A program made the position numbers and the translations under genes. Below, piece by piece: positions 32,067-62,206 of a stretch of DNA of 64,000 bases. The notes under the pieces are model-generated. The model was not told the origin of the DNA. It worked only from the letters and a program-made list of their open reading frames with translations, and made no database searches. Every line of letters starts with the position of its first letter. Positions within the stretch are counted from its first letter, which is position 1. The DNA comes from Shinella sp. CPCC 101442 (GTDB lineage Bacteria > Pseudomonadota > Alphaproteobacteria > Rhizobiales > Rhizobiaceae): assembly GCF_024704725.1 (NCBI RefSeq), contig NZ_JALIQS010000001.1, positions 186,001 through 250,000 on the forward strand. Reading direction: 5' to 3'.

Positions 32067-33368
32067 CTACGCGGCACCCGCCCTGATCATGCTGAAATAA
32101 TCGTCGCCGCCGACCTGGCCGCCCTTGAGCGCGATCTGCAGACCATCCGCAGGACCGCCATGGGCGACGCAGAGCGGAGATCCGGGCGTTTGCGGCAGCG
32201 GCATCTTCAGCGTGAGCGCGGCAATACCCATCTCGCCCAGCGCATGGCTGGACGTATCGCCGCCGGCGACGACGGCGCGTGCGAGACCCGTCCGCGCAAC
32301 GAGTTCCGACTGGATGCGGCCAAGCGCCCGACCGAGACGATGGCGCGCACCGATGGAGGAATCGAGCTCGCCGCCCCGGTCGGCAGAAGGTCCCAACGCC
32401 GTATAGAGCACGACGCTTTGCCCGGTTTCCAGCACGTTGAGACCGGCTGCTATGGCCGCAGCAATGGTTGCCGCATTGTCCTCGCCGGAAAGGGCGAGCG
32501 GGTCGAGCGTCACACCTCCGAAGCCATCGGCCAGCGCATGGCGGATCTGGCGCTCGGTCGTGGGAGAAACGCTGCCGGAAACGACGGCGATGCGGTCGAC
32601 GGGACCGGCATCGGCGAAAGCCGGTTTTTCACCGATCAAACCATCCGCCCTCCAGGCGGGGATCAGGGCATATTCGACGCCCGAGGAGCCGCAGACGAAG
32701 CGGCTGCTTCCACGCATCCGATTCCAGAGCAAAGCACCGGCCGCCGCCTGCGTCGGCTGGTCGAGCACGTCGAGCAGGAGGATATCGGCGTCTAGGGGTT
32801 CCGGCGCGCCGAGCAGCGCTACATTGTCCACCAAGGCGGAAGAGAGCTGCGTCTGACGCGACAGATGCAAGAGAAGATTGGCCTCATCCATCGGCGTGAC
32901 CGGATGACGCGACATGACCGGATGACGGTCGATGCGGTAGTTTCGGCCCTGATAGGCAGCGAAGAGTTCGCCGAAGGCGGTGTAGCGACGGATCTGCGGC
33001 GCACCGACGATGAGCGGCACCGTCCCGGCACCGAAGACCGCACGGCCGATCTCGATTGCCCTTCCGATATTTCCGACATGCGGGGCGGAATCGAAGGTCG
33101 AGCAGACCTTGTAGTGGCAAAGTTCGGCATCCAGCGCCTTCAACCAGACGAAGGCCGCGCGGAGATGCGCATCCATCCAGTCCGGCGTTTCGCTTCGGCT
33201 TGCCCCGGCCAGACCGAAGGCACGCGCACCGGTAAAGCGCGAGAGCAACTGCGCATCCGGCACTTTCAGGAAGAGCACGGTCTCGACGCCGTTCGAGGCA
33301 AGCGCCTCCATCACATCCGTCGAGCCGGTAAAATCATCGCCGTAATAGCTTATCAGGGGTCGCGTCAT
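32067..33368 (-). CDS. oiaK: 3-oxo-isoapionate kinase (four-carbon acid sugar kinase family)
   Basis: A 433-residue kinase of the DUF1537 / four-carbon acid sugar kinase family. The N-terminal substrate motif is YYGDDFTGSTDV (about 8-19) and the C-terminal nucleotide-binding region holds VVAGGDTSSHALGEMGI (about 365-381). In D-apiose pathways such a kinase phosphorylates 3-oxo-isoapionate to its 4-phosphate. It lies 2 bp after a RuBisCO-like gene and within 10 kb of apsD, apnL and apnO, the diagnostic D-apiose gene set, which supports this name over erythronate/threonate kinases of the same family. Confidence 0.85.
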   Translation of the reverse strand: MTRPLISYYGDDFTGSTDVMEALASNGVETVLFLKVPDAQLLSRFTGARAFGLAGASRSETPDWMDAHLRAAFVWLKALDAELCHYKVCSTFDSAPHVGNIGRAIEIGRAVFGAGTVPLIVGAPQIRRYTAFGELFAAYQGRNYRIDRHPVMSRHPVTPMDEANLLLHLSRQTQLSSALVDNVALLGAPEPLDADILLLDVLDQPTQAAAGALLWNRMRGSSRFVCGSSGVEYALIPAWRADGLIGEKPAFADAGPVDRIAVVSGSVSPTTERQIRHALADGFGGVTLDPLALSGEDNAATIAAAIAAGLNVLETGQSVVLYTALGPSADRGGELDSSIGARHRLGRALGRIQSELVARTGLARAVVAGGDTSSHALGEMGIAALTLKMPLPQTPGSPLCVAHGGPADGLQIALKGGQVGGDDYFSMIRAGAA

Positions 33369-33370
33369 GG

Positions 33371-34627
33371 TTAGGCCGCCTTGCCATCGGCAAATTTTTC
33401 AATGGATTGCCGAAGTTCCGGATGGTCCTTGGCATAGGTTTCGAGCGGCACGCCCGCGACGGCCGCCTCCCACGCCTGCTTCACCGCCTTCACCCCCGCG
33501 CCCGGTCCACCCGGATGGCTGACGATGCCGCCGCCACAGAGATAAAGCAGGTTCGTCGAACCACCTGTCGCCGCGATCGTATCCGGCGCCTGCCCGCCCC
33601 ACTGGCCGGAACCGATGACAGGAAGCGCGACGTCCTTGTCCGAAAACAGCGGCGTGGTGACAGCCTGATAGGAGCGCACGAAGCTTTCGTCCGGCTCCCA
33701 GTATTTCACGCGGATACCGTTGATCTGGAACTGGTCGATCCCAAGCAGCCGCCAGAACTGCTGCCAGACGGAAAATTCGAAGCCCAGGCCCGCATGGCGC
33801 GTGAGAACATCCCAGCCATTGCGGTGGGCATGCAGCACGAGGCCTGAGCGCTTGCGCAGGAATGCGAACCCGCCGAAACCGATCGAGTTGATGTTGACGA
33901 CGGCGCAATTGCCGCCCGCCGCCAGCACGGTGTCATGGTTGCGCAGCATCTCGTCCGGATCGGCATGGCTGATGCCGAAGGCGTACATGACCTTCCTGCC
34001 CGTCTTCTGCTCGTGATCGAGAATCTTCGGCATGATCGCCGCGACTCGATCCTTCAAGGACGAATAGGCCGGGCTCATCAGCTTCTCGTCGTCCTTGATG
34101 AAATCCACGCCGGCATCGATCAATTCGCCGACCATCGCCGCCGTCTCAGGCGGACGAAGACCGAGCGCCGGTTTGACGATGGTGCCGATGATCGGTCGGT
34201 CCTTGACGCCCGTCAGCGCAAAACTGCCGGATACGCCGAATTGCGGGCCGAGATGGGCGGCGGCGAATTCGGGCGGCAGCTTCATGTCGACGATACGGAT
34301 ACCCGTCATGCCCTTGATGGAAAAGACGCCGCCGATGGCGATCGTCATCAGCGCGGAGAGGTCAGTACCCACGGCGTCCAGCGGGAAATCGATATCGACA
34401 TCCGCGCGATTGAACAGCGTGGCGCCGCCCGCCTCATCGGGGAATGATGCACGGTCCGTCGGCGATAGCGGACGGATGGCGACGACGCGGGCCGCGACGC
34501 GCGCCTTTAATTCCTCCGTCTCGCCTGGCAGCGCGACGAAGGTGCCGGTCGACTGGTCGCTGGCGATCTTCGTCGCCATCTTCTCCACCGAACCGGGTGT
34601 TTCTATCCGATAGGTCAGACGGATCAC
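33371..34627 (-). CDS. oiaX: RuBisCO-like protein acting on 3-oxo-isoapionate 4-phosphate (OiaX-type probable)
   Basis: A 418-residue RuBisCO-like protein. Active-site residues match RuBisCO: Lys in GTIVKPALGL (about 167), the carbamate-Lys motif GVDFIKDDEKL (about 191-201), and HAHRNG (about 286). The GSGQWGG and GGGIVSHPGG phosphate loops are present. Loop-6 KxxG of true RuBisCO is absent, so it does not fix CO2. In D-apiose pathways RLPs either decarboxylate 3-oxo-isoapionate 4-phosphate to L-erythrulose 1-phosphate (as I recall OiaX) or split it into 3-phosphoglycerate and glycolate (OiaT). Linkage to the erythritol locus favours the first. Start is GTG 34627 with a GAAGGA ribosome site. 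Confidence 0.8.
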   Translation of the reverse strand: MIRLTYRIETPGSVEKMATKIASDQSTGTFVALPGETEELKARVAARVVAIRPLSPTDRASFPDEAGGATLFNRADVDIDFPLDAVGTDLSALMTIAIGGVFSIKGMTGIRIVDMKLPPEFAAAHLGPQFGVSGSFALTGVKDRPIIGTIVKPALGLRPPETAAMVGELIDAGVDFIKDDEKLMSPAYSSLKDRVAAIMPKILDHEQKTGRKVMYAFGISHADPDEMLRNHDTVLAAGGNCAVVNINSIGFGGFAFLRKRSGLVLHAHRNGWDVLTRHAGLGFEFSVWQQFWRLLGIDQFQINGIRVKYWEPDESFVRSYQAVTTPLFSDKDVALPVIGSGQWGGQAPDTIAATGGSTNLLYLCGGGIVSHPGGPGAGVKAVKQAWEAAVAGVPLETYAKDHPELRQSIEKFADGKAA

Positions 34628-34675
34628 GTTTCATCCTTCCGCAGCCGCGACATGTCGCTTGTGAATACCTTATGG

Positions 34676-34689
34676 CTGGTATAATGAGT
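34676..34689. promoter_or_regulatory. Putative GntR operator in the oiaX/gntR intergenic region
   Basis: CTGGTATAATGAGT, matching 12 of 14 bases of an element in front of apnO (43699-43712). Read on the minus strand it overlaps a likely oiaX -10 (TATACC) spaced 16 bp from TTGCAA. It lies between the divergent oiaX (start 34627) and GntR (start 34778) genes. Confidence 0.55.
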
Positions 34690-34777
34690 ATTTATGTTAT
34701 TGCAAGCCGATCACGGTGAAAGCTGTTGCGGCGAAGGAACTTGGTGCATATTCAAACCTGTCGAAATCAGGTGACTC

Positions 34778-35494
34778 ATGAACGTCGTTTCCGAACCCAT
34801 CATCCGCAAGAAACTTTCCGACGAAGTTTTCGCGCGATTGAAGGCCATGATCGAGACCGGCGAGTTGAAGGCCGGCGACGACATGCCTTCCGAGCGCGAA
34901 CTCATGGAGCGCTACGGCGTCGGCCGCCCGGCCATTCGCGAGGCCATGCAGGCGCTCGCCGGCAAGGGCCTGGTCGAGATTTCACAGGGCGAGCGCGCCA
35001 AAGTGCTCCGCATCACTGCCGAATCCATCTTCCGGCAGGTCGACCTGCCGGCCAAGATGATGCTCTCCGGCTCCTCCGACTCGCTGGAGCACCTGAAGAG
35101 CGCCCGTATCTTCTTCGAGCGCGGCATGATCCGTGAGGCCGCGACCCGGGCCACCCCGCAGCACATCGCCGAACTGCGCGCCCTCCTCGACAAACAGAAA
35201 GCCAGCCTTGGCGATGCCGACGCCTTCATCGATGCCGATATGGAATTTCACCAATATATCGCGCAGATCTCGGGCAATCCGATCTTCGCCGCCGTCTGCG
35301 GCGCAATGCTGGGCTGGCTGAAATCCTATCATACCGAAATGCTCATCTGGACGGGCCGCGAGAATTTTACGCTCGCCGAGCATGAGGAAATCATCCGCAC
35401 CATCGAGAAGGGCAATGCGGACCTTGCCGAGAAGGCGATGATCAAGCACCTCGAACGCTCCCGCGCGCTCTATGCCCTCAAAGGGCAGAAATAG
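34778..35494 (+). CDS. GntR/FadR-family regulator of the D-apiose cluster
   Basis: A 238-residue FadR-subfamily regulator: an N-terminal winged helix (about 10-75, with MPSERELMERYGVGRPAIREAM) followed by an FCD effector domain (about 95-230) with metal-binding His candidates (ADMEFHQYIA). Divergent from oiaX-oiaK and only 3 bp from the converging apnL end. Two near-identical CTGGTATAAYRAGT sites, one beside this gene and one before apnO, suggest it controls both halves of the apiose regulon; the inducer is probably an apiose pathway intermediate. Confidence 0.88.
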   Translation: MNVVSEPIIRKKLSDEVFARLKAMIETGELKAGDDMPSERELMERYGVGRPAIREAMQALAGKGLVEISQGERAKVLRITAESIFRQVDLPAKMMLSGSSDSLEHLKSARIFFERGMIREAATRATPQHIAELRALLDKQKASLGDADAFIDADMEFHQYIAQISGNPIFAAVCGAMLGWLKSYHTEMLIWTGRENFTLAEHEEIIRTIEKGNADLAEKAMIKHLERSRALYALKGQK

Positions 35495-35497
35495 GGT

Positions 35498-37360
35498 TCA
35501 GAGCACGACCTCGACGCAGCCGTAGGGCGGGACGATCACCTGTTCCGAGACCGGCAAGGCCTCTCCTCCGATCAGCGAAACCGCGAGCGGCAGCGCTGGT
35601 AGGGCCACTCTCTGCATCTCGGCCGTGATATTTGCCATCAGAAGCCGCTCCGTCGATGCAAGACCCAGCACCGCATTCGGCCGTGATGTCTCGACGGAAT
35701 ACACATCCTGCCCCGTCAACGCGCCCAGGCTTTCCAGGACATGGGCGAGTGGCCGTAGCGCCCCCTGCGCTGTTGCCTCGCCCTCGCCCGCCACTAGCCC
35801 GAACGAGCCTGCGAGCGTGGAAAGCGTCAGGACCTCCAGCCCAGCCCCAACAACCGTCGCAGCATAAGCCAGCGTCCAGGCAGCACCGAACGCACCGTTG
35901 TGCCGCGGGTCGATATTCGCCATGGGAATGCGTGCACCCGCAGAATTTTCTTTCGTCGCACTGCCATAGGGGTTCTGCCGCATGGCCAGCGTCGACGGGC
36001 CAATGCGATAGGGCTTTTCGCCGTAGATGGCACGGGTCGAACTGACCACGGAGCGCAGAGCCTCGAAAGTCTGCATGACCGAGAGATCGTCGGCCGCATG
36101 CACGATGGGGTTCGTGCAATGGCTGACATAATCGACAAGATCGCCAGGCACCCGCTTGCGGTTGAGTTCCGTGAAATAGCTCATCATGCCGCCGCCGAGA
36201 CGGACGCCGGGAAAGGCAGCCCGCGCCGCGGCGTAGACATGCTCCAGCGGAGGGCACTCCGGCCAGATGCTGCCGGGCGGTGTCGACTGGCGATCGACCG
36301 ACGGACAGACGAAGAGCGTCTCCAGTATCAGGCCGGCATCCCGCACCAGCGCGGCAAAGCCGGCCATCTCTTCGGCGAGTGGGCGCCTGCACGGCACGGC
36401 GAGTTCCAGCGTGACCTTGAGGCCGGATTTTTCCGCGATATCGGCATAGCCCTTCAAGGCCGCTATGCCATGGCCGGCATCCGGATCGAAATGGGCGATG
36501 AGGTGCCGTGCGCCGATGGTCCTCAGGGTATCGACGGCCGCCAGTTCCTGCGCAAGGCATTCCGGGCGCAGGCCGACGCCGATTTCGGGAAAGCGGCGGG
36601 CCGTCGGTGCCAGCTGCACAGTGATGACATCCGAGGTGCCGGTCGCAGGCACGGCATCGTCCGCAGCCTGAATTTCGACGGCCACCTTCTGGCTGAACGG
36701 CTGGTCCTTCGACACGAGATAGGGCCAGGGCAGCGCCAACGGGCGCACATAGGTCTTGTAGGAACCATCGGTCCAGTTGCGCTGGTCTTCCATCTCGAAG
36801 ATATCGCCAACAAATTCCGTCACCGCCGAGATGCCAGGCGCGACCCGATGGGTGATGGCGGAGATGTCCTTGAACGGTTGCCAAGGCTCGATACGGTCCG
36901 GCCACTGCGCGCGCTCGACACGACCATCGCCATGGCGGACATCGACGGGTTGCCCCGAAACGCCGATGACCGGGTGCAGCACGACGAACCCCGCGCGCGC
37001 GGTTTCGAAATCGGCATCGCTGACGCAGTCGGCTGCGAACGTCACCGCTGTCGCCGTGCCGGAAATGGTTATGGTGCAATCGAGATGGGCACCGGAGGGA
37101 GCCTTGAAGCGGGCCGTATAGGCAATGTCGAAACGCTCCCCGGACTCTTGCACATCGAGGCCCGAGATCTCGGCGCTACACGTACCCCAATCCTTGTCCC
37201 GAACAAGAAAGGAAACACCGCGCAGCACTTCATGGCCACGAAAGCGCAGCGTGCGCAGATTGCCGTCCTGAAATGCCACGTTCAGGTCACCGGCGGTGAA
37301 TATGCGGTTTTCCGGCTCGCGCTCGTTCGTACCATAGAGCCTGAGCAGGTCACTGCTCAT
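35498..37360 (-). CDS. apnL: D-apionolactone lactonase (ApnL-like)
   Basis: A 620-residue protein with an N-terminal beta-rich domain (about 1-270) and a C-terminal TIM-barrel half, the architecture of D-apionate lactonases. It would hydrolyse D-apionolactone, formed by apiose dehydrogenase, to D-apionate. Recognisable landmarks are RFRGHEVLRGVSFLVRDKDW (about 41-60) and GVRLGGGMMSYFTELNRKR (about 390-410). Its ATG overlaps the apsD stop by 4 bp (ATGA). The assignment rests on overall resemblance and tight operon context; catalytic residues of this family are not known to me. Confidence 0.8.
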   Translation of the reverse strand: MSSDLLRLYGTNEREPENRIFTAGDLNVAFQDGNLRTLRFRGHEVLRGVSFLVRDKDWGTCSAEISGLDVQESGERFDIAYTARFKAPSGAHLDCTITISGTATAVTFAADCVSDADFETARAGFVVLHPVIGVSGQPVDVRHGDGRVERAQWPDRIEPWQPFKDISAITHRVAPGISAVTEFVGDIFEMEDQRNWTDGSYKTYVRPLALPWPYLVSKDQPFSQKVAVEIQAADDAVPATGTSDVITVQLAPTARRFPEIGVGLRPECLAQELAAVDTLRTIGARHLIAHFDPDAGHGIAALKGYADIAEKSGLKVTLELAVPCRRPLAEEMAGFAALVRDAGLILETLFVCPSVDRQSTPPGSIWPECPPLEHVYAAARAAFPGVRLGGGMMSYFTELNRKRVPGDLVDYVSHCTNPIVHAADDLSVMQTFEALRSVVSSTRAIYGEKPYRIGPSTLAMRQNPYGSATKENSAGARIPMANIDPRHNGAFGAAWTLAYAATVVGAGLEVLTLSTLAGSFGLVAGEGEATAQGALRPLAHVLESLGALTGQDVYSVETSRPNAVLGLASTERLLMANITAEMQRVALPALPLAVSLIGGEALPVSEQVIVPPYGCVEVVL

Positions 37361-38391
37361 GAAAGCAGGTCCGCGATGGTAACGGTCTCGCCGCGCTCGG
37401 CGCTCAAATACGCTGCCTCGACGAGGGCAAAGGTCTTGAGATTGTCGCGACCGGACGTGTCCGGCTCACGGCCCTCTGTCAGCCGTTCGGCCCAATGTTT
37501 CTGGATGAGCGCAACGCTTTCCTGAATGTTGTGCCAGGGACGCGACGCCCAGGGCAGCAGGTTCGGCGCGACGATGTTTTCCGTCGTGCCATCAGGCCCG
37601 TGGACGACGAGCTTGTAATCCTTGCCGAGGCGCAGCGTGCCTTTACTGCCATCAATTTCGACGAAGGTCTCCGGGAACGGTTCTTCCGGCAACTTCGTCG
37701 CGTAGCTGACATCGACGATCGAGGTGATGCCGTTGTCGTGGTCGAGCAGCATGGTAGCCACGTCTTCGCCGGCAATGTCCGGATTGATGCGGCGCGTACG
37801 GGCGGTCATGCGGCTAGCGTCGCCGAACAGGAAGCGGGCGATATCGAGCGAATGGATGCCGAGGTCTTCGATGATGAAGCGCTTGCCTTTGGCGAGATAG
37901 GGCTGACCGGAGAAGACATCGAAGCCGGAGCGGAAGGAGACACGACCCCAGAAGGGATCGCCGATCGCGCCGCCGTCCAGCACCGCCTTCACCGCAAGAA
38001 TGGGTGTCTGCCAGCGAAAATTCTCGTGGATCATCAGTGGAATGCCGGCCTTGTCAGCGGCGGCGACCATCGCCTTGGCATCTTCAAGCGTCGGCGCAAA
38101 GGGCTTCTGGCAGATCGCCGGAACCTTGTGGCTGGCGGCAAGCTCCACCAGTGCCCGATGGCTGCCGACCGTCGTTGCGATATCGACGAAATCGAAGCCG
38201 CCGTCGGCAAACATGTCGTCCGCCGAGTGATAACGCCTGTCGACACCGAACTGTTCGCCGACGATCGCAAGCCGTTGCGGATCACGGTCGCAGATCGCCA
38301 CGATCTCGACGTCCGGCAGGTCCTGCCAGCCATGCATCTGGTTGACGGCGAAGAAGCCGCAGCCGATGAGCGCACCCTTCGTCTTCGCCAT
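37357..38391 (-). CDS. apsD: D-apiose dehydrogenase (Gfo/Idh/MocA family)
   Basis: A 344-residue NAD(P)-dependent sugar dehydrogenase. The Rossmann motif is GCGFFAVNQMHGW (about 11-23), the Gfo/Idh/MocA signature ICQKPFAPTLEDAKAMV has the EKP-like Lys (about 94), and the catalytic His/Asp candidates are in EDLGIHSLDIARFL (about 172-186). In this setting it oxidises D-apiose to D-apionolactone. ATG 38391 is used; the upstream TTG at 38397 overlaps the permease stop. Third-from-last gene of the apiose transcript before apnL. Confidence 0.85.
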   Translation of the reverse strand: MAKTKGALIGCGFFAVNQMHGWQDLPDVEIVAICDRDPQRLAIVGEQFGVDRRYHSADDMFADGGFDFVDIATTVGSHRALVELAASHKVPAICQKPFAPTLEDAKAMVAAADKAGIPLMIHENFRWQTPILAVKAVLDGGAIGDPFWGRVSFRSGFDVFSGQPYLAKGKRFIIEDLGIHSLDIARFLFGDASRMTARTRRINPDIAGEDVATMLLDHDNGITSIVDVSYATKLPEEPFPETFVEIDGSKGTLRLGKDYKLVVHGPDGTTENIVAPNLLPWASRPWHNIQESVALIQKHWAERLTEGREPDTSGRDNLKTFALVEAAYLSAERGETVTIADLLS

Positions 38392-38393
38392 GC

Positions 38394-39461
38394 TCAACCT
38401 GCCTTTGCCATCTGCATCAGGGTGACGCGCTGCTGGAGGCGGCGCTGCGCCTGATCGACCACGACGGCAACGATGATGACGAGGCCCTTGATCACCATCT
38501 GCCAGAAGGAACTCACACCCATCATCACCAACCCGTCCGAGAGAATGCCGATCACAAAGGCGCCGATAATCGTGCCGCCAATCGTGCCGCGCCCGCCCGA
38601 CATGGATGTACCACCGAGAACGGCTGCTGCAATGGCGTTGAGTTCGAGATTCGTGCCGGTCGCCGGATGCGAGGCCATCAGCTCCGAGGAGATGATGAGG
38701 CCGACAATCGCCGCACAGAAGCCGGAAAACATGTAGACGAACATTTTTACGCGGTTGACGCGGATACCCGACATGCGGGACGCGCGTTCATTACCACCGA
38801 CCGCGAAGATATGGCGGCCGAGCGGCACGAAGCGGGCGAAATAGGCGGCCCCCAGCGCGACGACGATGAGGATCCAGACCGAGACCGGCAGCCCGAGGAT
38901 CGAGCCGGAGCCGAGATAGGAAAAACCCTGGTTGCCGAGGTCTTCGCGCCCCGTGAGGTTGGGCAGCGTCTGACCGTCGGAATAAAGCAGCGCCATGCCG
39001 CGCGCCACATAGAGCGTACCGAGCGTCGCGATGAAGGGGGCGACGTTCAGGCGGGTGATCAAGAGGCCGTTGACCGCGCCGATCAGGATGCCGACGACCA
39101 TGACGATAACAGCCACTTCGACGATGTTGAAATAGACCGTGTAGCCCAGCGGCAGCGCGACACCATACATGATGAGCCCACCGGCGATCATGCCGCAGAG
39201 GCCGACGATCGAGCCGACGGACAGGTCGATGCCGCCGGTGATGATGACGAAGGTCATGCCGATTGCCAGAAACGCATTCTGTGTCGCGTGCTTCGACATC
39301 AGGATCATGTTGGCGGTCGACAGGAAATTCGGCGCGAAGATCGAGAAGAAGATGATCACCGCAAAGAGCGCAATGAAGGTTCGAAGCTTCATCAGCGTCA
39401 GCAGGGCGGCTCCGGTGGAGAGGTGGTTGCCGGTGGCGGCAGTTTGCGTTGCTGTCGTCAT
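38394..39461 (-). CDS. D-apiose ABC transporter permease (RbsC type)
   Basis: A 355-residue inner-membrane permease of the ribose/xylose/autoinducer-2 family with eight to ten hydrophobic segments. The family motif GGIDLSVGSIVGLCGM is at about 79-94, and a GGTSMSGGRGTIGGTIIGA segment lies at about 280-298. It forms the homodimeric channel with the adjacent double-domain ATPase. The ATG at 39461 overlaps the ATPase stop by one base (TGATG). Confidence 0.88.
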   Translation of the reverse strand: MTTATQTAATGNHLSTGAALLTLMKLRTFIALFAVIIFFSIFAPNFLSTANMILMSKHATQNAFLAIGMTFVIITGGIDLSVGSIVGLCGMIAGGLIMYGVALPLGYTVYFNIVEVAVIVMVVGILIGAVNGLLITRLNVAPFIATLGTLYVARGMALLYSDGQTLPNLTGREDLGNQGFSYLGSGSILGLPVSVWILIVVALGAAYFARFVPLGRHIFAVGGNERASRMSGIRVNRVKMFVYMFSGFCAAIVGLIISSELMASHPATGTNLELNAIAAAVLGGTSMSGGRGTIGGTIIGAFVIGILSDGLVMMGVSSFWQMVIKGLVIIVAVVVDQAQRRLQQRVTLMQMAKAG

Positions 39462-41005: not shown

Positions 41006-41007
41006 CG

Positions 41008-41652: not shown

Positions 41653-41672
41653 TCTCCGTCACAAACAGAAAA

Positions 41673-41700: not shown

Positions 41701-41714
41701 CCATCGCGGGAGGA

Positions 41715-42671
<957 letters not shown>

Positions 42672-42773: not shown

Positions 42774-42777
42774 GAAA

Positions 42778-52066: not shown

Positions 52067-52079
52067 GGATTCAGCGCTC

Positions 52080-53617
<1,538 letters not shown>

Positions 53618-53621
<4 letters not shown>

Positions 53622-54268: not shown

Positions 54269-55037
54269 GTCAGATGGCCTTGCAGTTGAACGATGGAAGC
54301 GTCAGCGGGCGCGCCGGCGGAGAGCCGGTGGCATCAATCGGCTGAGAAACACATCTATGGCGCCAGGGCCCTGTGTCGATGCCTTCCAAACAGAACATGT
54401 CATGATGTCCTCCCCATGAACGCGCCAGCCAGATCTCCTCACCCGCTTTGCGCTGCAGTGCACACTTTTTCGCAGTTGCGATATATGTGTGTGATATGTC
54501 CCAGTGTATATGTTAATTTAACACAGACTGTCAATCGACGATTTCAGACTGCACCGTTTTGTGATCGCTGCCCAAAACTGGCAGATTACCCATGAACACG
54601 GAATCTACGCGCAACCTCTGTCACCACGGAAGCAGTAGGAAAACAGGCATACAAAAGGTGGAAGTAAGGCTGTTTTTCCTTGAAAAAATCCGTGAAATCG
54701 GAAATTTCAAAGCGGCTGGTGTTATCTATATGCATCAGGATGCGGAGCCATGAGACCATCGAGATGCGCCGCATCTCTTTCACGCCTCACCCAGGCATCA
54801 TACTTGAAAAAAAATTCTTAATAAGAAAAATTTTACGAGACACGTGATAACTTTATGTTATGTTATTTTGCGAGGCACGGGAGATCCGCGTGGAAATTCC
54901 TTGCAGGGTCGTCGAGACCCCGGCCAAGTGGCCATGAGGAGCGCACGCGCTTTCGTGAGACTATCGGGAGGATCGAATGCTTTGTTTCGGGTCAGGCGAA
55001 GCGGCGCGCATTGTCGCGGCCGGCATAGGTGCGCGCC
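54269..55037. promoter_or_regulatory. Long divergent control region between the erythritol importer and eryA
   Basis: 769 bp without a convincing gene and much richer in A+T than its surroundings. It holds the palindrome TGTTAATTTAACA (54511-54523), the palindrome TTCTTAATAAGAA (54815-54827) inside longer A/T arms, a CACGTG word (54841-54846) and two overlapping ATGTTAT words (54855-54866). The last are also found twice before eryR. These are candidate EryD/EryR operators for both divergent operons. Short open frames inside it show no family signature. Confidence 0.55.
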
Positions 55038-56588
55038 ATGACTGAGGCGCAAGGCCTGATCATCGGCATCGACGCCGGCACGTCGGTCATGAAAGCCGTC
55101 GCCTTCACGCTCGCCGGGCGCCAGATCGCCAGCGCTTCCGTGCGCAACAGCTACAAGACCAGCGATGATGGCTCCGTCACACAATCCCTCGAACAGACCT
55201 GGCTCGATTGCACGCGCGCTTTGCGCGGGCTCGCCGAAAAGGTCCAGAATCTCGCCGAACGCACCGCCGCCATTTCCGTCACGGCACAGGGCGACGGCAC
55301 CTGGCTCGTCGGTGCCGGCAACCGCCCCGTTGGTGACGCCTGGCTGTGGCTTGACGCCCGCGCGGCACCGACCGTCGAACGGCTGGCCGCCAGCGATGCC
55401 GACCGCCAGCGCTTCGAGGCGACCGGCACCGGTCTCAACACCTGCCAGCAGGGCACGCAGCTTGCCCATATGGACCGCCACTTCCCCGAACTGCTTGCCG
55501 GCGCGGAAGTCGCGATGCATTGCAAGGACTGGCTCTATCTCAATTTGACGGGGGTGCGCGCCACCGATCCTTCCGAAGTGAGCTTCACCTTCGGCAATTT
55601 TCGCACGCGATGCTACGACGCAGACGTGCTCGCCGCCCTCGGCCTGACGCATCGCCGCAACCTGCTGCCCGAAGTCATCGAGGGCACGGAAACCACGCAT
55701 CCGCTGACGGCGGAAGCCGCGGCGGCCGCGGGCCTTAAAGCCGGAACGCCTGTTTGCCTCGGTTATGTCGACATGTGCATGACGGCGCTGGGTGCGGGCG
55801 TTCGCAGCGAAGGCCGCAATGCCGCCTGTTCCGCCATCGGCTCGACGGGCGTCCATCTCCAGGCGAAATCCGTGGCCGACGTCGTGCTGAACGCCGAACG
55901 CACCGGCTATGTCATCGCGCTCCCCATCCCCGGCATCGTCACGCAGGTCCAGACCAATATGGGCGCGACGATCAATCTCGACTGGCTGCTCCAGCTCGGC
56001 GCCGATCTTCTCGGCGAATTCGGCGTCACCGTCGGGCTCAACGACATGATCGGCCGCGTCGACCAGTGGATTGCCGCGAGCAAGCCCGGCAACATCCTTT
56101 ATCACCCCTATATCTCCGAGGCCGGCGAACGCGGCCCCTTCGTCAACGCCCGCGCTCGCGCCAATTTCACCGGCCTTGCGAGCCGCCACCGCTATCCGGA
56201 TCTCGTGCGCGCCGTCGTGGAAGGCCTCGGCATGGCGACGCGCGACTGCTACGCCGCCATGGGCGCCCTGCCCTCCGAACTTCGCGTCAGCGGCGGTGCC
56301 GCCCGCTCGGCCTCGCTGCGGAAAACGCTCGGTGCGGCCCTTGGCGCGCCGGTTCGCGTCAGCACCCGTGAAGAAGCGGGCGCTGCGGGCGCCTCAATGA
56401 TGGCCGCCGTCGCCATCGGCGCCTATCGCACGATGGACGACTGCATTGCCGACTGGGTGACGCCGGAGCTTGGCGATGCCGAACAGCCCAAACCCGAAGA
56501 CACCGAACGCATGACCCGCCTCTTCGCCGCCTATTCCGAGGTGCGCCAAGGCATCGCGCCGGCCTGGGACATCCTGGCCGCGCGCTGA
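55038..56588 (+). CDS. eryA: Erythritol kinase
   Basis: A 516-residue FGGY kinase, first gene of the ery operon, phosphorylating erythritol to L-erythritol 4-phosphate. The N-terminal IIGIDAGTSVMKAVAFTLAG (about 7-26) and the C-terminal LRVSGGAARSASLRKTLGAAL (seen as RVSGGAARSA, about 414) are typical. Order eryA-eryB-eryC-eryD downstream fixes the identity. ATG 55038 has AGGTG 8 bp upstream; the GTG at 55029 overlaps that site. Confidence 0.93.
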   Translation: MTEAQGLIIGIDAGTSVMKAVAFTLAGRQIASASVRNSYKTSDDGSVTQSLEQTWLDCTRALRGLAEKVQNLAERTAAISVTAQGDGTWLVGAGNRPVGDAWLWLDARAAPTVERLAASDADRQRFEATGTGLNTCQQGTQLAHMDRHFPELLAGAEVAMHCKDWLYLNLTGVRATDPSEVSFTFGNFRTRCYDADVLAALGLTHRRNLLPEVIEGTETTHPLTAEAAAAAGLKAGTPVCLGYVDMCMTALGAGVRSEGRNAACSAIGSTGVHLQAKSVADVVLNAERTGYVIALPIPGIVTQVQTNMGATINLDWLLQLGADLLGEFGVTVGLNDMIGRVDQWIAASKPGNILYHPYISEAGERGPFVNARARANFTGLASRHRYPDLVRAVVEGLGMATRDCYAAMGALPSELRVSGGAARSASLRKTLGAALGAPVRVSTREEAGAAGASMMAAVAIGAYRTMDDCIADWVTPELGDAEQPKPEDTERMTRLFAAYSEVRQGIAPAWDILAAR

Positions 56589-56638
56589 CGAAATGACGAA
56601 TGCGCGGCCCTCCCTGGCCGGCGCTGAAGGAGAACGAG

Positions 56639-58150
56639 ATGAACGAGCCCGAGCTTATTGACCTCTTCGTGATCGGCGGCGGCATCAACGGCGCCGGCAT
56701 TGCCCGCGACGCGGCGGGCCGCGGACTGAAGGTCGTGCTCTGCGAGAAGGACGACCTGGCCGAGGGCACGTCGTCGCGCTCCGGCAAGCTTGTGCATGGC
56801 GGCCTGCGCTATCTCGAATATTACGAATTCCGCCTGGTGCGCGAGGCCTTGATCGAGCGCGAAGTGCTGCTCAATGCCGCTCCCCACATCATCTGGCCGA
56901 TGCGTTTCGTGCTGCCACATAGCCCGCAGGATCGTCCGGCCTGGCTCGTGCGCCTCGGGCTCTTCCTCTACGACCATCTCGGCGGCCGCAAGAAGCTGCC
57001 GGGCACGCGCACGCTGGATCTCAAGCGCGATCCCGAGGGCACGCCGATCCTCGACCAGTACGCGCGCGGCTTCGAATATTCCGACTGCTGGGTGGATGAC
57101 GCCCGCCTCGTGACGCTGAACGCCATCGGCGCCGCCGAAAAGGGCGCCGTCATCCTGACCCGCTCGCCCGCCACTTCCGCCCGCCGCGAAAACGGCGCCT
57201 GGACGGTCACGACGACGAACGGTGCGACCGGAGAAACCAGAACCTTCCGCGCGAAATGCCTCGTCAACTGTGCCGGCCCCTGGGTTTCCGACATCATCAA
57301 CCGCGTCGCCGGCTCGAACTCGTCGCGAAATGTGCGCCTCGTCAAGGGCAGCCACATCATCGTGCCGAAGTTCTGGGCAGGCGCGAATGCCTATCTGGTG
57401 CAGAACCACGACAAGCGCGTCATCTTCATCAACCCCTACGAGGGCGACAAGGCACTGATCGGCACCACCGATATCGCCTATGAAGGCCGCGCCGAGGACG
57501 TCTCGGCCGACGAGGCTGAGATCGATTATCTGCTGAAGGCGGTGAACCGCTACTTCAAGGAGAAGCTGCGCCGGCAGGACGTGCTGCATTCCTTCTCCGG
57601 CGTGCGCCCGCTGTTCGACGACGGCAAGGGCAACCCGTCCGCCGTCACCCGCGATTATGTCTTCGACCTCGACGAAACCGGGGGCGCGCCGCTGCTCAAC
57701 GTCTTCGGCGGCAAAATCACCACCTTCCGCGAGCTGGCCGAGCGCGGCATGCACCGCCTCCAGCACATCTTCCCCAACATGGGCGGCGACTGGACGGAGA
57801 AGGCCCCGCTGCCGGGCGGCGACATGCCGAACGCCGACTACGAGACCTTCGCCAATAGCTTGCGTGATGCCTATCCCTGGATGCCGCGCAAGCTGGTGCA
57901 GCACTACGGCCGTCTCTACGGCACCCGCACGAAAGCCATTGTCGGCACCGCGACCAGCCTGGAAGGCCTGGGTCGGCATTTCGGCGGGCAGTTCTATGAG
58001 GCGGAAGCGCGCTACCTCGTCGCCAGTGAATGGGCGCAACGGGCGGAAGACGTGCTCTACCGCCGCACCAAACACTATTTGCACCTGACGGAAGCCGAAC
58101 GTGCGGCTTTCGCCGACTGGTTCAACGCCACCCGCCTTGCCGCCGCCTGA
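56639..58150 (+). CDS. eryB: L-erythritol 4-phosphate dehydrogenase
   Basis: A 503-residue FAD-dependent dehydrogenase of the GlpD family, oxidising L-erythritol 4-phosphate to L-3-tetrulose 4-phosphate (equal to L-erythrulose 1-phosphate). FAD motif VIGGGINGAGIARDAAGRG (about 11-29); GTSSRSGKLVHGGLRYLEYY (about 43-62) and FGGKITTFRELAERG (about 352-366) are family hallmarks. Starts with ATG 56639 after GAAGGAG. Seven bases separate it from eryC. Confidence 0.93.
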   Translation: MNEPELIDLFVIGGGINGAGIARDAAGRGLKVVLCEKDDLAEGTSSRSGKLVHGGLRYLEYYEFRLVREALIEREVLLNAAPHIIWPMRFVLPHSPQDRPAWLVRLGLFLYDHLGGRKKLPGTRTLDLKRDPEGTPILDQYARGFEYSDCWVDDARLVTLNAIGAAEKGAVILTRSPATSARRENGAWTVTTTNGATGETRTFRAKCLVNCAGPWVSDIINRVAGSNSSRNVRLVKGSHIIVPKFWAGANAYLVQNHDKRVIFINPYEGDKALIGTTDIAYEGRAEDVSADEAEIDYLLKAVNRYFKEKLRRQDVLHSFSGVRPLFDDGKGNPSAVTRDYVFDLDETGGAPLLNVFGGKITTFRELAERGMHRLQHIFPNMGGDWTEKAPLPGGDMPNADYETFANSLRDAYPWMPRKLVQHYGRLYGTRTKAIVGTATSLEGLGRHFGGQFYEAEARYLVASEWAQRAEDVLYRRTKHYLHLTEAERAAFADWFNATRLAAA

Positions 58151-58157
58151 GGATTCC

Positions 58158-59093
58158 ATGTCGCTGACGCTCTCGCTCAACACCAATCCGCTGGTCAACC
58201 GCTTCGCCGATCCCGACGATCTCATCGAGACCGTCGCAAGGGACCTGAAGCTGCGCGATCTCCAGCTTACGCACGAATTCATCAATCCGAGCTGGAATGC
58301 CGCGACGATCAACCGGCTGACGCGGCAGATGGACAGGGCGCTTCAGCGCACCGGCGTTCGCGTCACCTCGGGCATGACCGGTCCCTATGGCCGCCTCAAT
58401 CATTTCGGCCATCCGGATGCGGATGTGCGTCGCTACTATGTCGACTGGTTCAAGACCTTTGCCGATATCATCGGCGATCTCGGCGGCACCTCCGTCGGCA
58501 CCCAGTTCGCCATCTTCACCTACAAGGATTTTGACGACCCGGTTCGCCGTGAGGAGCTGATCCGGATCGCCATCGACTGCTGGGCCGAAGTGGCCGAGCA
58601 CGCCAAAGGTGCCGGCCTTTCCTATGTCTTCTGGGAACCGATGAGCGTCGGCCGAGAATTCGGCGAGACGATCGCCGAGTGCATCAAGCTTCAGGACCGG
58701 CTGACCACCGCCGACATGGCCGTCCCCATGTGGATGATGGCCGATATCGACCATGGCGACGTGACCTCCAGCAATCCTGACGATTACGAGCCCTATGCCT
58801 GGGCGCGCGCAGTTCCAAAAATCTCGCCGATCATCCACATCAAGCAGAGCCTGATGGACAAGGGCGGCCACCGTCCCTTTACCGCCGAATTCAACGCCAA
58901 GGGCCGCATCCAGCCGGAACCGTTGCTGAAGGCCTTTGCCGAGGGCGGCGCGCTCGACAACGAAATCTGCCTGGAACTCTCCTTCAAAGAACGCGAGCCG
59001 AACGACCGGCAGGTCATTCCGCAGATCGCCGAAAGCATCGCCTTCTGGGCGCCGCATATCGATACCGGTGAGTCCGATCTCAAGCTGGGCTGA
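58158..59093 (+). CDS. eryC: L-3-tetrulose 4-phosphate racemase/isomerase (EryC), TIM barrel
   Basis: A 311-residue sugar-phosphate isomerase-like TIM barrel. In Brucella EryC acts on the EryB product, converting L- to D-3-tetrulose 4-phosphate. Landmarks: LQLTHEFINPSWN (about 35-47), VTSGMTGPYGRLNHFGHPD (about 72-90), YVFWEPMSVGREF (about 157-169, candidate metal Glu), ADIDHGD (about 195) and LELSFKERE (about 274). The same activity (LerI) is needed to use L-erythrulose 1-phosphate from D-apiose. Confidence 0.9.
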   Translation: MSLTLSLNTNPLVNRFADPDDLIETVARDLKLRDLQLTHEFINPSWNAATINRLTRQMDRALQRTGVRVTSGMTGPYGRLNHFGHPDADVRRYYVDWFKTFADIIGDLGGTSVGTQFAIFTYKDFDDPVRREELIRIAIDCWAEVAEHAKGAGLSYVFWEPMSVGREFGETIAECIKLQDRLTTADMAVPMWMMADIDHGDVTSSNPDDYEPYAWARAVPKISPIIHIKQSLMDKGGHRPFTAEFNAKGRIQPEPLLKAFAEGGALDNEICLELSFKEREPNDRQVIPQIAESIAFWAPHIDTGESDLKLG

Positions 59094-59166
59094 CCGTTCC
59101 TCGACCGCTTGCTAAGACTGGACCTGAAAAGCGCTTTCGCTTGCAGAGCAGGACAGGACATCGCCG

Positions 59167-60111
59167 ATGACCGACAATGAAGATTCCCTCGCCGTCCGCG
59201 CCGCCTGGCTGCATTACATCGGGGGCTTCACGCAGTCCGCCGTGGCCAAGCGCCTCGGCATTCCCTCGGTGAAGGCGCATCGGCTGATCGCGCGCGCGGT
59301 CGCCGAAGGCGTGGTCAAGGTCAGCATCGACGGCGATATCGCCGAATGCGTCAACCTGGAAGTGGAACTCTCCAAACGGTACGGTCTCGACTATTGCGAG
59401 GTGGCCCCCGATGTCGACGACGATGCGCTGGCGCTGACGACGCTCGGCCATGTCGGCGCGGATTTCCTCCGCCGCGAGATCGAACGCGGCGAAGTGGCCG
59501 TCATCGGTTTGGGTCATGGGCGCACGCTTTCGGCGGCCGTCCACCATCTGCCCCGCATCAGCGCCAGCGGCACGCGCTTCGTCTCGCTTCTCGGCGGCCT
59601 CACCCGAAACTATGCCGCCAATCCCTATGATGTCATGCATCGGCTGGCGGCCAAGACCGGCACCCAGGCCTATGTGATGCCCGTGCCCTTCTTCGCCAAT
59701 ACGGAGGAAGACCGCGAGGTGCTGCTCTCCCAGCGCGGCGTGAGCGAGGTCTTCAATCTCGCCCGCAGCGCAGACCTGAAGCTCGTGGGTATCGGTACGG
59801 TCGACAATCAGGCCCACCTGGTCACCTCGGGCATGCTGCAGCCGGACGAGCTGGAAGAGATCGTAGCTCTTGGCGGCGTCGGCGAACTGCTCGGTCATTT
59901 CTTCGACAGCAAGGGCCGGATCCTCGAGACGTCGGTTACGGCACGCACGCTTGCTGCCTCCTTCTCGGAAACCGGGCGTGACCGGGTTGTCGCCATTGCC
60001 GGCGGCCCTGCGAAGACCGAGGCGATCCGCGCCGTGCTGCACAGCCACAAGCTCCACGGGCTCATTACCGACGAGCGGACCGCACGTCTTCTGTTGCAAA
60101 GTTCGGCGTGA
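59167..60111 (+). CDS. eryD: EryD, SorC-family transcriptional repressor of the ery operon
   Basis: A 314-residue SorC/DeoR-like regulator. The N-terminal helix-turn-helix is FTQSAVAKRLGIPSVKAHRLI (split: FTQSAVAKRLGIPSVKAHRL, about 22-41); the C-terminal sugar-binding domain has IGLGHGRTLSAAVHHL, GTVDNQAHLV and a final GGPAKTEAIRAVL. EryD represses ery genes and is released by erythritol in Brucella. Probably binds the 54269-55037 control region. Confidence 0.93.
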   Translation: MTDNEDSLAVRAAWLHYIGGFTQSAVAKRLGIPSVKAHRLIARAVAEGVVKVSIDGDIAECVNLEVELSKRYGLDYCEVAPDVDDDALALTTLGHVGADFLRREIERGEVAVIGLGHGRTLSAAVHHLPRISASGTRFVSLLGGLTRNYAANPYDVMHRLAAKTGTQAYVMPVPFFANTEEDREVLLSQRGVSEVFNLARSADLKLVGIGTVDNQAHLVTSGMLQPDELEEIVALGGVGELLGHFFDSKGRILETSVTARTLAASFSETGRDRVVAIAGGPAKTEAIRAVLHSHKLHGLITDERTARLLLQSSA

Positions 60112-60136
60112 CAAAAATCACAAAATCACACTTTTC

Positions 60137-60166
60137 ATGTTATAATTTGCCGAATTTGATGTTATA
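60137..60166 (+). promoter_or_regulatory. eryR promoter region with direct repeats
   Basis: ATGTTATA occurs at 60137-60144 and again at 60159-60166, spaced 22 bp start to start (two helical turns). TATAAT at 60141-60146 is a possible -10 box. The same ATGTTAT word is repeated before eryA (54855-54866), hinting at a shared regulator. Provides an internal promoter for eryR-tpiB-rpiB. Confidence 0.45.
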
Positions 60167-60191
60167 GAACTGGGAACATCAGGAGGATGCG

Positions 60192-60965
60192 GTGAAACGG
60201 GAAGAGCGCAGGCAGGAGATCATCAATCTTCTGGTCGAAAGCCGGGCCGTCGAACTCGATGACATCGCGGCGCGCTTCGGTGTCTCCAAGATGACCATTC
60301 ACCGCGACCTCGACGATCTCGAACGCGCCGGTGTGCTGCGCAAGGTGCGTGGCGGCGCGACGATCGATGCGGGCACCCAGTTCGAGAGCGACTTCCGTTT
60401 CCGTGAACTGCAGGAGGCCGACGTCAAGCGCGCGCTGGCGAAGACTGCGGCCGAGCTCGTCGAACCAGGCATGACCGTGATGATCAACGACGGCTCGATG
60501 GCTTCGGTGCTCGGCGATGTGCTCGCCGAGAAGAAGCCGATCACCATCATCACCAACAATGCCGCGATCATGGAGCGCGCCAAGGGCCTGTCCGGGGTGA
60601 CGCTGATTGCCGTCGGCGGCGTCTATTCCGCCAAGTTCAACGCCTATTTCGGCATCGTCACGGAAGAGGCCCTGTCGCGGCTTCGCGCCGACATTGCCTT
60701 CATCTCGGCGCCTGCGGCATCGGGCCGCCTCTCCTATCACATGGACGAGGCCGTGGTGCGCACCAAGCGGGCCATGATGGCGTCGAGCCGCCAGACCTGC
60801 CTGATGATCAACAGCCGACGCTTCGGCCACACCGCACTGCATGTGCTCGCCGATCTCGCCGAATTCGACACCGTCATTTCAGACAAACCCCTGCCCCACG
60901 ACACATCCGCCGAACTTGGCGGTGGCAAGACCGTGGTGCGCATCGCCAAGGAGACGACGACATGA
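60192..60965 (+). CDS. eryR: EryR, DeoR-family regulator of the ery locus
   Basis: A 257-residue DeoR-type repressor. Helix-turn-helix in VELDDIAARFGVSKMTIHRD (about 20-39); DeoRC phosphosugar domain with INDGSMASVLGDVL, TNNAAIMERAK and NSRRFGHTALH. Begins at GTG 60192 with a strong AGGAGG site. Its stop overlaps tpiB (ATGA). Together with EryD it gives the locus a second, probably sugar-phosphate-sensing, control. Distinct from the DeoR at 48988-49842. Confidence 0.9.
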   Translation: MKREERRQEIINLLVESRAVELDDIAARFGVSKMTIHRDLDDLERAGVLRKVRGGATIDAGTQFESDFRFRELQEADVKRALAKTAAELVEPGMTVMINDGSMASVLGDVLAEKKPITIITNNAAIMERAKGLSGVTLIAVGGVYSAKFNAYFGIVTEEALSRLRADIAFISAPAASGRLSYHMDEAVVRTKRAMMASSRQTCLMINSRRFGHTALHVLADLAEFDTVISDKPLPHDTSAELGGGKTVVRIAKETTT

Positions 60966-61732
60966 GCCACGGCCGGAATTTCTGGGTCGGCACGAGCTGG
61001 AAGATGAACAAGACGCTGGCGGAGGCAAAAGTCTTCGCCGAAGGTCTGAAGGCCGCCGATGACGGCCGTGACGCCCGCATCCAGCGCTTCGTCATCCCGC
61101 CCTTTACCGCCGTGCGCGAAGTCAAGGCTCTCCTGGCGGATACCTCCGTGAAGGTGGGCGCGCAGAACATGCACTGGGCCGATGAAGGTGCATGGACCGG
61201 CGAAGTCTCGCCCGTCATGCTGAAGGATTGCAATCTCGACCTCGTCGAACTCGGCCATTCCGAACGCCGTGAGCATTTTAGCGAAACGGATGAGCGCGTC
61301 GGTCTCAAGACGGAAGCCGCCGTGCGTCATGGACTCGTGCCGCTGATCTGCATCGGCGAAACGCTGGCCGACCGCGAGAGCGGCCGTGCGGCGGATGTGC
61401 TGGCCGCGCAGGTGCGCGGCGCGCTTGGCAAGCTCGAAGGTGCGCAGAAACAAGCCGAAATCCTGCTCGCCTACGAGCCTGTCTGGGCGATCGGCGAAAA
61501 CGGCATTCCCGCCACCGCCGACTATGCCAACGCACGCCATGCCGAAATCGCGAAGGTGGCGGAAGATATTCTCGGCCGCCGCATTCCCTGCCTCTACGGC
61601 GGCTCGGTGAACCCCGGGAATTGCGAAGAACTGATCGCCTGCCCCGATATCGACGGGCTCTTCATCGGCCGTTCTGCCTGGAAGGTTGAAGGCTACCTCG
61701 ACATCCTGGCGCGCTCAGCCGCCACCATCTGA
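60962..61732 (+). CDS. tpiB: Triosephosphate isomerase paralogue TpiB (EryH), D-3-tetrulose 4-phosphate isomerase
   Basis: A 256-residue TIM-barrel protein with the triosephosphate isomerase active site: Lys in GTSWKMNKT (about Lys14), His in LGHSERREHF (about His98) and Glu in LAYEPVWAIGENGIPA (about Glu171), followed by phosphate-binding LYGGSVNPGN. In Brucella EryH works on 4-carbon ketose phosphates in the erythritol route. The ATG overlaps the eryR stop by 4 bp. Confidence 0.92.
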   Translation: MSHGRNFWVGTSWKMNKTLAEAKVFAEGLKAADDGRDARIQRFVIPPFTAVREVKALLADTSVKVGAQNMHWADEGAWTGEVSPVMLKDCNLDLVELGHSERREHFSETDERVGLKTEAAVRHGLVPLICIGETLADRESGRAADVLAAQVRGALGKLEGAQKQAEILLAYEPVWAIGENGIPATADYANARHAEIAKVAEDILGRRIPCLYGGSVNPGNCEELIACPDIDGLFIGRSAWKVEGYLDILARSAATI

Positions 61733-61747
61733 AGAAGGAGAATTCCC

Positions 61748-62206
61748 ATGAAACTCGCTATTGCCGGTGACAGCGCGGGCGAAGGTCTCGCCAAGGTCCT
61801 CGCCGATCACCTGAAGGACCGCCATGACGTGCACGAAGTCTCGCGCACCGATGCCGGCCCGGACGCCTTCTACGCCACTCTCTCCGACCGCGTCGCCTCG
61901 GCCGTCGTCGCCGGCGAATACGACCGTGCGATCCTCGTCTGCGGCACCGGCATCGGCGTCTGCATTTCCGCCAACAAGGTGCCCGGCATCCGTGCCGCGC
62001 TGACGCACGACACCTATTCGGCCGAGCGCGCAGCACTCTCCAACAACGCCCAGATCATCACCATGGGCGCCCGCGTCATCGGTTCGGAACTCGCCAAGGC
62101 CATCGCCGACGCCTACCTCGCCCAGACTTTTGACGAAAACGGCCGTTCGGCCGGCAACGTCCAGGCGATCAACGAGGTCGACGCCAAGTACAACGCCGGC
62201 AAGTAA
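61748..62206 (+). CDS. rpiB: RpiB-like isomerase (EryI), D-erythrose 4-phosphate isomerase
   Basis: A 152-residue RpiB/LacAB-family isomerase. The active-site [14 protein letters not shown] (about 64-77) with catalytic Cys, the proximal phosphate-binding [14 protein letters not shown] and N-terminal IAGDSAGEG are present. In Brucella EryI completes the path to D-erythrose 4-phosphate, which enters the pentose phosphate pathway. Last gene of the ery operon; a GAAGGAG site precedes the ATG and a strong hairpin follows. Confidence 0.92.

Follow-up and report, generated by a model that had tools for sequence, protein, structure and literature searches.

A pair of tetrulose phosphate isomerases probably shared by D-apiose and erythritol breakdown in a Shinella locus

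Erythritol is broken down in Rhizobium, Brucella and Ochrobactrum by the EryABC-EryH-EryI pathway, according to the accessible text of PMC3599248 and PMC10190533. An oxidative pathway for D-apiose is attributed at second hand to Carter et al. 2018 in the accessible part of PMC6302742, which names strain K84 for the decarboxylase. The tetritol pathway of Mycobacterium smegmatis makes use of LerK, LerI and DerI (PMC12780249 and PMC10733421, each available in part). Here we consider a 64,000-nucleotide stretch of DNA from Shinella sp. CPCC 101442, called the window throughout, in which D-apiose genes and a complete set of erythritol (ery) genes lie in one locus. Gene content and comparison with relatives make it highly probable that the two catabolic systems drain through one isomerase pair, EryH and EryI, and that they meet after the epimerase EryC. 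The window comes from contig C1 of a genome of 6.13 Mb, with a tabulated completeness of 100 and contamination of 0.23.

An initial annotation of the window had noted genes resembling apsD, apnL, apnO, oiaK and a gene for a RuBisCO-like protein beside eryABCD-eryR-tpiB-rpiB, with a Dha kinase in between. All of these are indeed present, apsD, apnO and oiaK as candidates, and because the gene sets recur in relatives their occurrence is not a matter of chance. They are laid out in two units on the minus strand, one for apiose and one for a tetritol transporter and a second polyol module, and in a third unit, the ery row, on the plus strand. The enzymes of the two routes are as follows.

32067-33368, minus strand: OiaK-like 3-oxo-isoapionate 4-kinase; NF042436 is the best match, at 441 bits, and its cut-off of 700 is not reached
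33371-34627, minus strand: OiaX, RuBisCO-like 3-oxo-isoapionate-4-phosphate decarboxylase; NF042437 at 774 bits (cut-off 700), PF00016, PF02788
35498-37360, minus strand: ApnL, D-apionate lactonase; NF049900 at 804 bits (cut-off 750)
37357-38397, minus strand: ApsD candidate, D-apiose dehydrogenase (Gfo/Idh/MocA); PF01408, PF22725
42778-43605, minus strand: ApnO candidate, D-apionate oxidoisomerase; PF16896 at 253 bits; ATG probably near 43605, the longest open frame reaching 43710
55029-56588, plus strand: EryA, erythritol kinase (FGGY); by family and ery gene order
56600-58150, plus strand: EryB, D-erythritol 1-phosphate dehydrogenase (GlpD family); PRK13369 at 880 bits (cut-off 352) and gene order
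58101-59093, plus strand: EryC, D-erythrulose 1-phosphate 3-epimerase; PF01261, reaction as given in the accessible text of PMC10733421
60962-61732, plus strand: EryH (TpiB/LerI-type), L-erythrulose 1-phosphate isomerase; triose-phosphate isomerase family; proposed first shared step
61748-62206, plus strand: EryI (RpiB/DerI-type), D-erythrulose 4-phosphate isomerase; NF051858 at 259 bits (cut-off 240); proposed second shared step

The score of OiaX bears out the decarboxylase class that had been proposed for the RuBisCO-like protein, and the title of NF051858 is itself "D-erythrulose-4-phosphate isomerase". ApnO and ApsD are assigned from domain and context, neither reaching a curated NCBIfam cut-off, and EryA, EryB, EryC, EryH and the regulators EryD and EryR from family and gene order, without dedicated models; EryB passes general glycerol-3-phosphate dehydrogenase models and EryH a triose-phosphate isomerase model. 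The open frame of eryC starts within the end of eryB, with its first ATG near 58158. ApnO and the Dha kinase (DhaKL) had been placed on plus-strand open frames (42742-43620 and 43769-45538), a placement that has to be reversed, as the real genes lie on the minus strand; the plus-strand frames have no family matches and are taken as spurious.

Where the two routes meet turns on stereochemistry. Carter et al. are said to have identified the OiaX product, in 2018, as L-erythrulose 1-phosphate. The initial annotation held this to be the same compound as the EryB product, L-3-tetrulose 4-phosphate, yet when the identities of the C4 phosphates are worked out by Fischer bookkeeping the latter proves to be D-erythrulose 1-phosphate, the enantiomer of L-erythrulose 1-phosphate, in agreement with the accessible text of PMC10733421. 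The reactions that connect the two forms come from the literature: the same text describes EryC as a D-erythrulose 1-phosphate 3-epimerase linking D- and L-erythrulose 1-phosphate, and has LerI and DerI leading from L-erythrulose 1-phosphate to erythrose 4-phosphate in E. coli constructs. It also reports that with EryC omitted and FucA or RhaD as aldolase there was no growth, from which its authors infer that the D form is made. Since the OiaX and EryB products are enantiomers joined by EryC, the routes would meet after EryC, so that EryH and EryI can be common to both and EryC need not be.

In the proposed scheme, D-apiose would be imported and then converted by ApsD, ApnL, ApnO, OiaK and OiaX to L-erythrulose 1-phosphate and CO2. 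Erythritol would pass through EryA and EryB to D-erythrulose 1-phosphate, which EryC, used by this route only, would epimerize to L-erythrulose 1-phosphate. EryH would then turn L-erythrulose 1-phosphate into D-erythrulose 4-phosphate and EryI would turn that into D-erythrose 4-phosphate, both isomerases serving both routes; for apiose in Shinella sp. CPCC 101442 this use of the pair is what we infer. A Rhodobacteraceae strain with five apiose genes, the decarboxylase among them, grows on D-apiose, as the accessible part of PMC11747546 has it.

Family scans found no isomerase among the apiose genes of the window, and the apiose operon apparently leads no further than L-erythrulose 1-phosphate, having no last steps of its own. 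The genes eryA, eryB, eryC, eryH and eryI are contiguous (55029-62206), and the same row is found in relatives. The genome holds a single EryH, its next best match being a triose-phosphate isomerase 40% identical, and a single EryI, both in the ery row, and this one pair would therefore have to serve both routes.

Co-occurrence with OiaX was observed in two samples of related genomes. The first consisted of 397 genomes of the same order, searched for OiaX and EryI, with EryC and EryH followed in the genomes that hold OiaX (EryI at E 1e-55 or better, EryH at E 1e-60 or better). OiaX is present in 26 of the 397 and EryI in 59, and EryI occurs in 25 of the 26 OiaX genomes against 34 of the 371 without OiaX (Fisher p 3e-22, ignoring kinship). 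Within genus g2 EryI is found in 3/3 genomes with OiaX and 0/2 without, and within genus g3 in 3/3 and 0/5. EryH reaches the threshold in 25 of the 26, the 26th being G087. EryC is present in 15 of the 26 and missing in 11; all of these 11 have EryH (in G087 only a 45% identical copy), and all but G247 have EryI. OiaX and EryI lie at most 10 kb apart in 8 of the 26 (G023, G105, G187, G209, G015, G087, G119 and G286); in the window they are about 27 kb apart.

The second sample comprised 80 OiaX loci, the best 80 of 568 relatives, each with up to 10 kb on either side; some stretches end at contig ends, so presence counts within them are lower bounds. The nearest relatives of the window's OiaX are those of Shinella, with 93% identity to S. 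granuli. Within these stretches OiaK has a match in 80/80, ApsD in 76/80 and ApnO in 70/80, and EryI is found in 25, EryH in 24 and EryC in 7. A dedicated order, oiaX-oiaK-eryH-eryI, occurs in 13 of the 80 (L136, L138, L153, L154, L159, L162, L163, L168, L171, L183, L190, L205 and L208). OiaX and EryC share one stretch, in varied orders, in Rhizobium and Mesorhizobium (L137, L151, L155, L156, L160, L169 and L176, the names of L137 and L151 going no further than family or order), and do so also in G209.

For 50 of the 80 loci, whole genomes were searched for EryI, EryH and EryC. EryI and EryH are each present in 50/50, and adjacent in 50/50; EryC is present in 41. A dedicated eryH-eryI pair follows oiaK in 10 of the 50. 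Nine of these lack EryC; L159, the one exception, has it together with a second EryI. EryC is present in every one of the 40 genomes that have no such pair (Fisher p 4e-9, ignoring kinship); 35 of the 40 carry only one copy each of EryH and EryI, and in 33 the distance from EryI to EryC is at most 10 kb. In this sample, then, there is either an apiose operon with its own isomerases or a genome with EryC, a complementarity that is looser in the first sample. On the EryH tree, which has many weak forks and some long branches, 6 changes of an apiose-only label are required in the best topology, and no fewer than 2 when judged by the well-supported branches; isomerase recruitment into apiose operons therefore probably happened more than once.

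That said, several observations weigh against a shared isomerase pair. A kinship-aware test of the complementarity in the 50 genomes yielded 4 independent pairs, of which 3 agree, 0 oppose and 1 shows no difference, and its p of 0.25 is not significant because there are too few independent events. The two samples overlap (L208 is a contig of G187, and L204 of G323). The EryH of G087, between OiaX and EryI, is only 45% identical, and G247 has OiaX and two EryH, one adjoining ApnO, with only a 45% identical EryI homologue elsewhere. The rule of "own pair or ery locus" is not strict among the 11 EryC-free OiaX genomes of the first sample: four have the pair beside OiaX/OiaK (G023, G105, G187 and G087) and in two (G119 and G286) neither isomerase is more than 10 kb from OiaX, but in G149, G316 and G330 EryH is near and EryI elsewhere, in G135 both are elsewhere, and G247 is without a good EryI. 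Some genomes without OiaX, 4 in genus g68 and 6 in genus g76, have EryI as well, which would be expected if EryI had a part in other routes too. OiaK falls below its model's cut-off of 700, a shortfall that says little, since the OiaK of Rhizobium rhizogenes NBRC 13257 itself scores 463 bits and that of Rhizobium sp. Root708 472, both likewise below 700. Lastly, the L configuration of the OiaX product rests on what Carter et al. reportedly found in 2018.

Other readings of the locus must be set beside these points. In favor of identical OiaX and EryB products, with EryC, EryH and EryI all serving apiose, as the initial annotation had it, EryC stands in one gene row with the isomerases in the window and occurs in 41 of 50 OiaX genomes. 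The products are enantiomers, however, the 13 dedicated apiose operons hold eryH-eryI and no eryC, and EryC is missing in 11/26 and 9/50 OiaX genomes, on which grounds it is rejected as a common step. This version is thus quite improbable: of the common lower pathway, TpiB (EryH) and RpiB (EryI) stand and EryC does not.

A RuBisCO-like protein acting as an OiaT-like transcarboxylase/hydrolase would instead yield 3-phosphoglycerate and glycolate, and the ery neighborhood would be a coincidental clustering of plant-sugar genes. The NCBIfam matches include no OiaT model, so the OiaX and OiaT classes are not contrasted by profile, and rhizobia and their relatives, in which both sets of genes are widespread, supply most of the 80 OiaX loci. 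It is nevertheless very improbable, given that OiaX scores above an equivalog cut-off, that OiaX homologues 76-88% identical adjoin eryH-eryI, a pair useless to a transcarboxylase, in 13/80 loci, and that EryI and EryH each occur in every one of the 50 OiaX genomes. One can also imagine that L-erythrulose 1-phosphate from apiose is drained by some other enzyme, for instance by an aldolase yielding dihydroxyacetone phosphate and formaldehyde, or by loss of the phosphate and its renewal through DhaKL. Such an aldolase had been suggested earlier for erythritol breakdown in two other bacteria (cited in the accessible text of PMC10733421), a Dha kinase is present in the window, and L150, L180 and L184 have a Dha-type match behind ApnL and no EryI in the stretch. 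This has hardly any probability, as no aldolase was found among the apiose genes scanned and the 13 dedicated operons hold eryH-eryI without a Dha kinase in the stretch, though G105 has both.

The reactions themselves are known; what is new is the sharing of EryH and EryI, the merge point after EryC and the partial complementarity with dedicated copies. No paper linking the D-apiose and erythritol pathways was found among sources available in part, a search with subscription journals outside its range, and Carter et al. 2018 may discuss such a link. Sharing would tell which enzymes complete D-apiose breakdown in bacteria whose apiose genes apparently take the sugar no further than L-erythrulose 1-phosphate; many relatives appear to share the isomerases in the same way. 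On this reading, mutants in eryH and eryI should fail to grow on apiose and on erythritol, and eryC mutants on erythritol only. The isomerase pair is built into apiose operons of genomes without EryC, and the genomic evidence speaks independently for an L-configured OiaX product.

The apiose unit runs on the minus strand from 43605 to 32067 in the order ApnO, binding protein, DUF2291, ATPase, permease, ApsD, ApnL, OiaX and OiaK, with a GntR gene on the opposite strand between ApnL and OiaX. Besides the enzymes it includes the following.

34778-35494, plus strand: GntR-family regulator, divergent from OiaX; NF003011 at 349 bits (cut-off 260); in 79/80 OiaX stretches
38394-39464, minus strand: permease of the apiose ATP-binding cassette (ABC) transporter
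39461-41005, minus strand: ATPase of the apiose transporter; true start probably near 41000 (approximate)
41008-41652, minus strand: DUF2291 lipoprotein of the apiose transporter; PF10054 at 201 bits
41715-42656, minus strand: solute-binding protein of the apiose transporter; 87% identical to Rhizobium etli RHE_PF00037, PDB 4ry0

The longest open frame of the ATPase gene begins at 41506, and since its first 170 codons overlap the DUF2291 gene the start is put near 41000 and the 170-residue N-terminal extension regarded as an artefact. PDB chain 5ibq, whose ligand we take to be D-apiose, matches the binding protein equally well; the predicted structure of that protein is weak (mean predicted local distance difference test score 63), and the 4ry0 assignment is carried by sequence. 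A terminator-like site at 41702-41671, a consensus match, sits within the unit. Elsewhere in the same genome (C2:1098878-1099588, L002) lies a second, distant RuBisCO-like protein, with 70.6 bits to PF00016.

The rest of the ery row, and the unit that lies upstream of the apiose genes on the minus strand (54268 to 43922, in the order DUF2291, ATPase, permease, binding protein, DeoR, FGGY2, GlpD2, DhaKL), are made up as follows.

43868-43841, minus strand: terminator-like hairpin behind the Dha kinase; 12-pair stem and T tail, a consensus match only
43922-45622, minus strand: DhaKL kinase, proposed L-erythrulose 1-kinase (LerK-like); PRK14479 at 744 bits (cut-off 492); putative GTG start, placed from the domain start
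45713-47386, minus strand: GlpD2, FAD polyol-phosphate dehydrogenase; PF01266, PF16901; 30% identical to EryB
47405-48955, minus strand: FGGY2, polyol/ketose kinase; PF00370, PF02782; 28% identical to EryA
48988-49770, minus strand: DeoR-type regulator of the second polyol module; start approximate
49959-50996, minus strand: solute-binding protein of the tetritol transporter; PF13407
51026-52090, minus strand: permease of the tetritol transporter
52080-53621, minus strand: ATPase of the tetritol transporter
53618-54268, minus strand: DUF2291 lipoprotein of the tetritol transporter; PF10054
59167-60111, plus strand: EryD, SorC/DeoR-type repressor
60192-60965, plus strand: EryR, DeoR-type regulator

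In both ribose-type transporters (41008-41652 and 53618-54268) a DUF2291 lipoprotein gene stands ahead of the ATPase gene. EryR adjoins EryH, and separately EryI, in G149, G316 and G330, all three without EryC, and this suggests that EryR regulates the isomerases. EryR-EryH lies near OiaX in these three genomes and a second EryR, with EryI, elsewhere, so that where the isomerases are split there also seem to be two copies of the regulator (the stretches are L047, L055 and L056, and L066, L074 and L075).

A terminator-like hairpin lies between DhaKL and ApnO, so that transcription of the Dha kinase gene may be separate from that of the apiose genes, though 21 such sites were found in 32000-48000 against 12.4 in shuffles and one of them is inside the apiose unit itself. 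Because of this hairpin and the close spacing of DhaKL behind GlpD2, the kinase would appear to go with the tetritol genes in the window. Among relatives this is a tendency only: in the 25 of 80 OiaX stretches that bear EryI, a Dha-type match occurs in 12/12 of the non-dedicated and 0/13 of the dedicated ones, but G105 has the isomerase pair and then DhaKL, and six stretches (L134, L140, L150, L180, L184 and L204) have a Dha match without EryI. In L150, L180 and L184 the stretch has no binding protein, ATPase or permease match either, perhaps a variant with a different transporter and a kinase. In Rhizobium sp. Root708 DhaK and DhaL are distinct genes, located between eryI and those for apiose. 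The DhaKL of G336, a genome without OiaX or EryC matches, is 69% identical to the window's and lies in a row of ABC transporter genes, DhaK, DhaL, a short-chain dehydrogenase, DhaKL, EryH and EryI (L121, G336:C13:589000-608990, at 244-10059). No EryA, EryB, EryC or OiaX match was found in that stretch, which looks like a stand-alone tetritol/erythrulose operon and fits an erythrulose kinase feeding EryH.

LerK is a kinase of the Dha family. A Dha-type kinase in a locus with EryH/EryI, which we use as the mark of LerK, is found in the window and also beside EryI in relatives, and DhaKL is a candidate kinase for free tetruloses. The accessible text of PMC12780249 calls kinases specific to each tetrose unreported; we nonetheless count LerK, named in that of PMC10733421, as one.

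The second polyol module (FGGY2, GlpD2 and DeoR, 45713-49770) had gone unmentioned in the initial annotation. In 60 genomes selected for having EryI or OiaX, GlpD2 matches of at least 49% identity occur in 19, of which 17 have EryC and G247 and G329 do not; by the maps FGGY2 adjoins GlpD2 in 16 of the 19, G329 having none and G150 and G121 lying outside coverage. The pair is thus recurrently joined to ery loci. By Fischer bookkeeping L-threitol would give L-erythrulose 1-phosphate directly and D-threitol the D form. The substrate of the module is perhaps a threitol; L-threitol fits the two EryC-free cases, and D-threitol fits the other 17 equally well. L133 and L191 likewise have a GlpD2 match at most 10 kb from OiaX, and the window's own genome has a further GlpD2/FGGY2-like pair (C1:13000-32990, L125, at 8355 and 10283; 45% and 49% identical).

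A broader and rather doubtful extension would make the locus a four-input tetrulose 1-phosphate hub with one drain, EryH and EryI, taking in apiose, erythritol, free L-erythrulose (through DhaKL) and another tetritol. The fourth input would then most likely be L-threitol, converted by FGGY2 and GlpD2 to L-erythrulose 1-phosphate without EryC, and EryR would sense the common C4 phosphate. We know of no description of such a kinase and FAD-dehydrogenase route for L-threitol.

Farther off in the window, enolase-superfamily genes (20099-21214 and 27865-29073) flank oligopeptide-type ABC transporter genes, and a 3-hydroxyisobutyrate-dehydrogenase-like gene (29070-30023) follows the second of them; the whole (20099-30023) is possibly another sugar-acid cluster.

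Set beside the oxidative D-apiose pathway with the OiaX decarboxylase, the window likewise has ApnL, OiaX and an ABC transporter, with candidates for ApsD, ApnO and OiaK. In the pathway of Carter et al. (2018) LerI and DerI are reportedly the last steps, and in the window these seem to be supplied by the ery operon. Strain K84 we take to belong to R. rhizogenes, and the OiaX of R. rhizogenes NBRC 13257 is 78% identical to the window's. Like the genome of the window, that of NBRC 13257 has single copies of EryI and EryH; both are no more than 3.2 kb from EryC, and neither lies within 10 kb of OiaX. The likeness to the EryABC-EryH-EryI system is also close, the window having a complete eryABCD-eryR-eryH-eryI and an EryEFG-type transporter; unlike that system, it has the additional FGGY2-GlpD2-DeoR-DhaKL in the transporter unit and adjoins an apiose operon. 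With the tetritol pathway of M. smegmatis it shares a proposed erythrulose kinase, an L-erythrulose 1-phosphate isomerase and a D-erythrulose 4-phosphate isomerase, but whereas the input there is free tetrulose from tetritol, in the window three or four inputs would converge.

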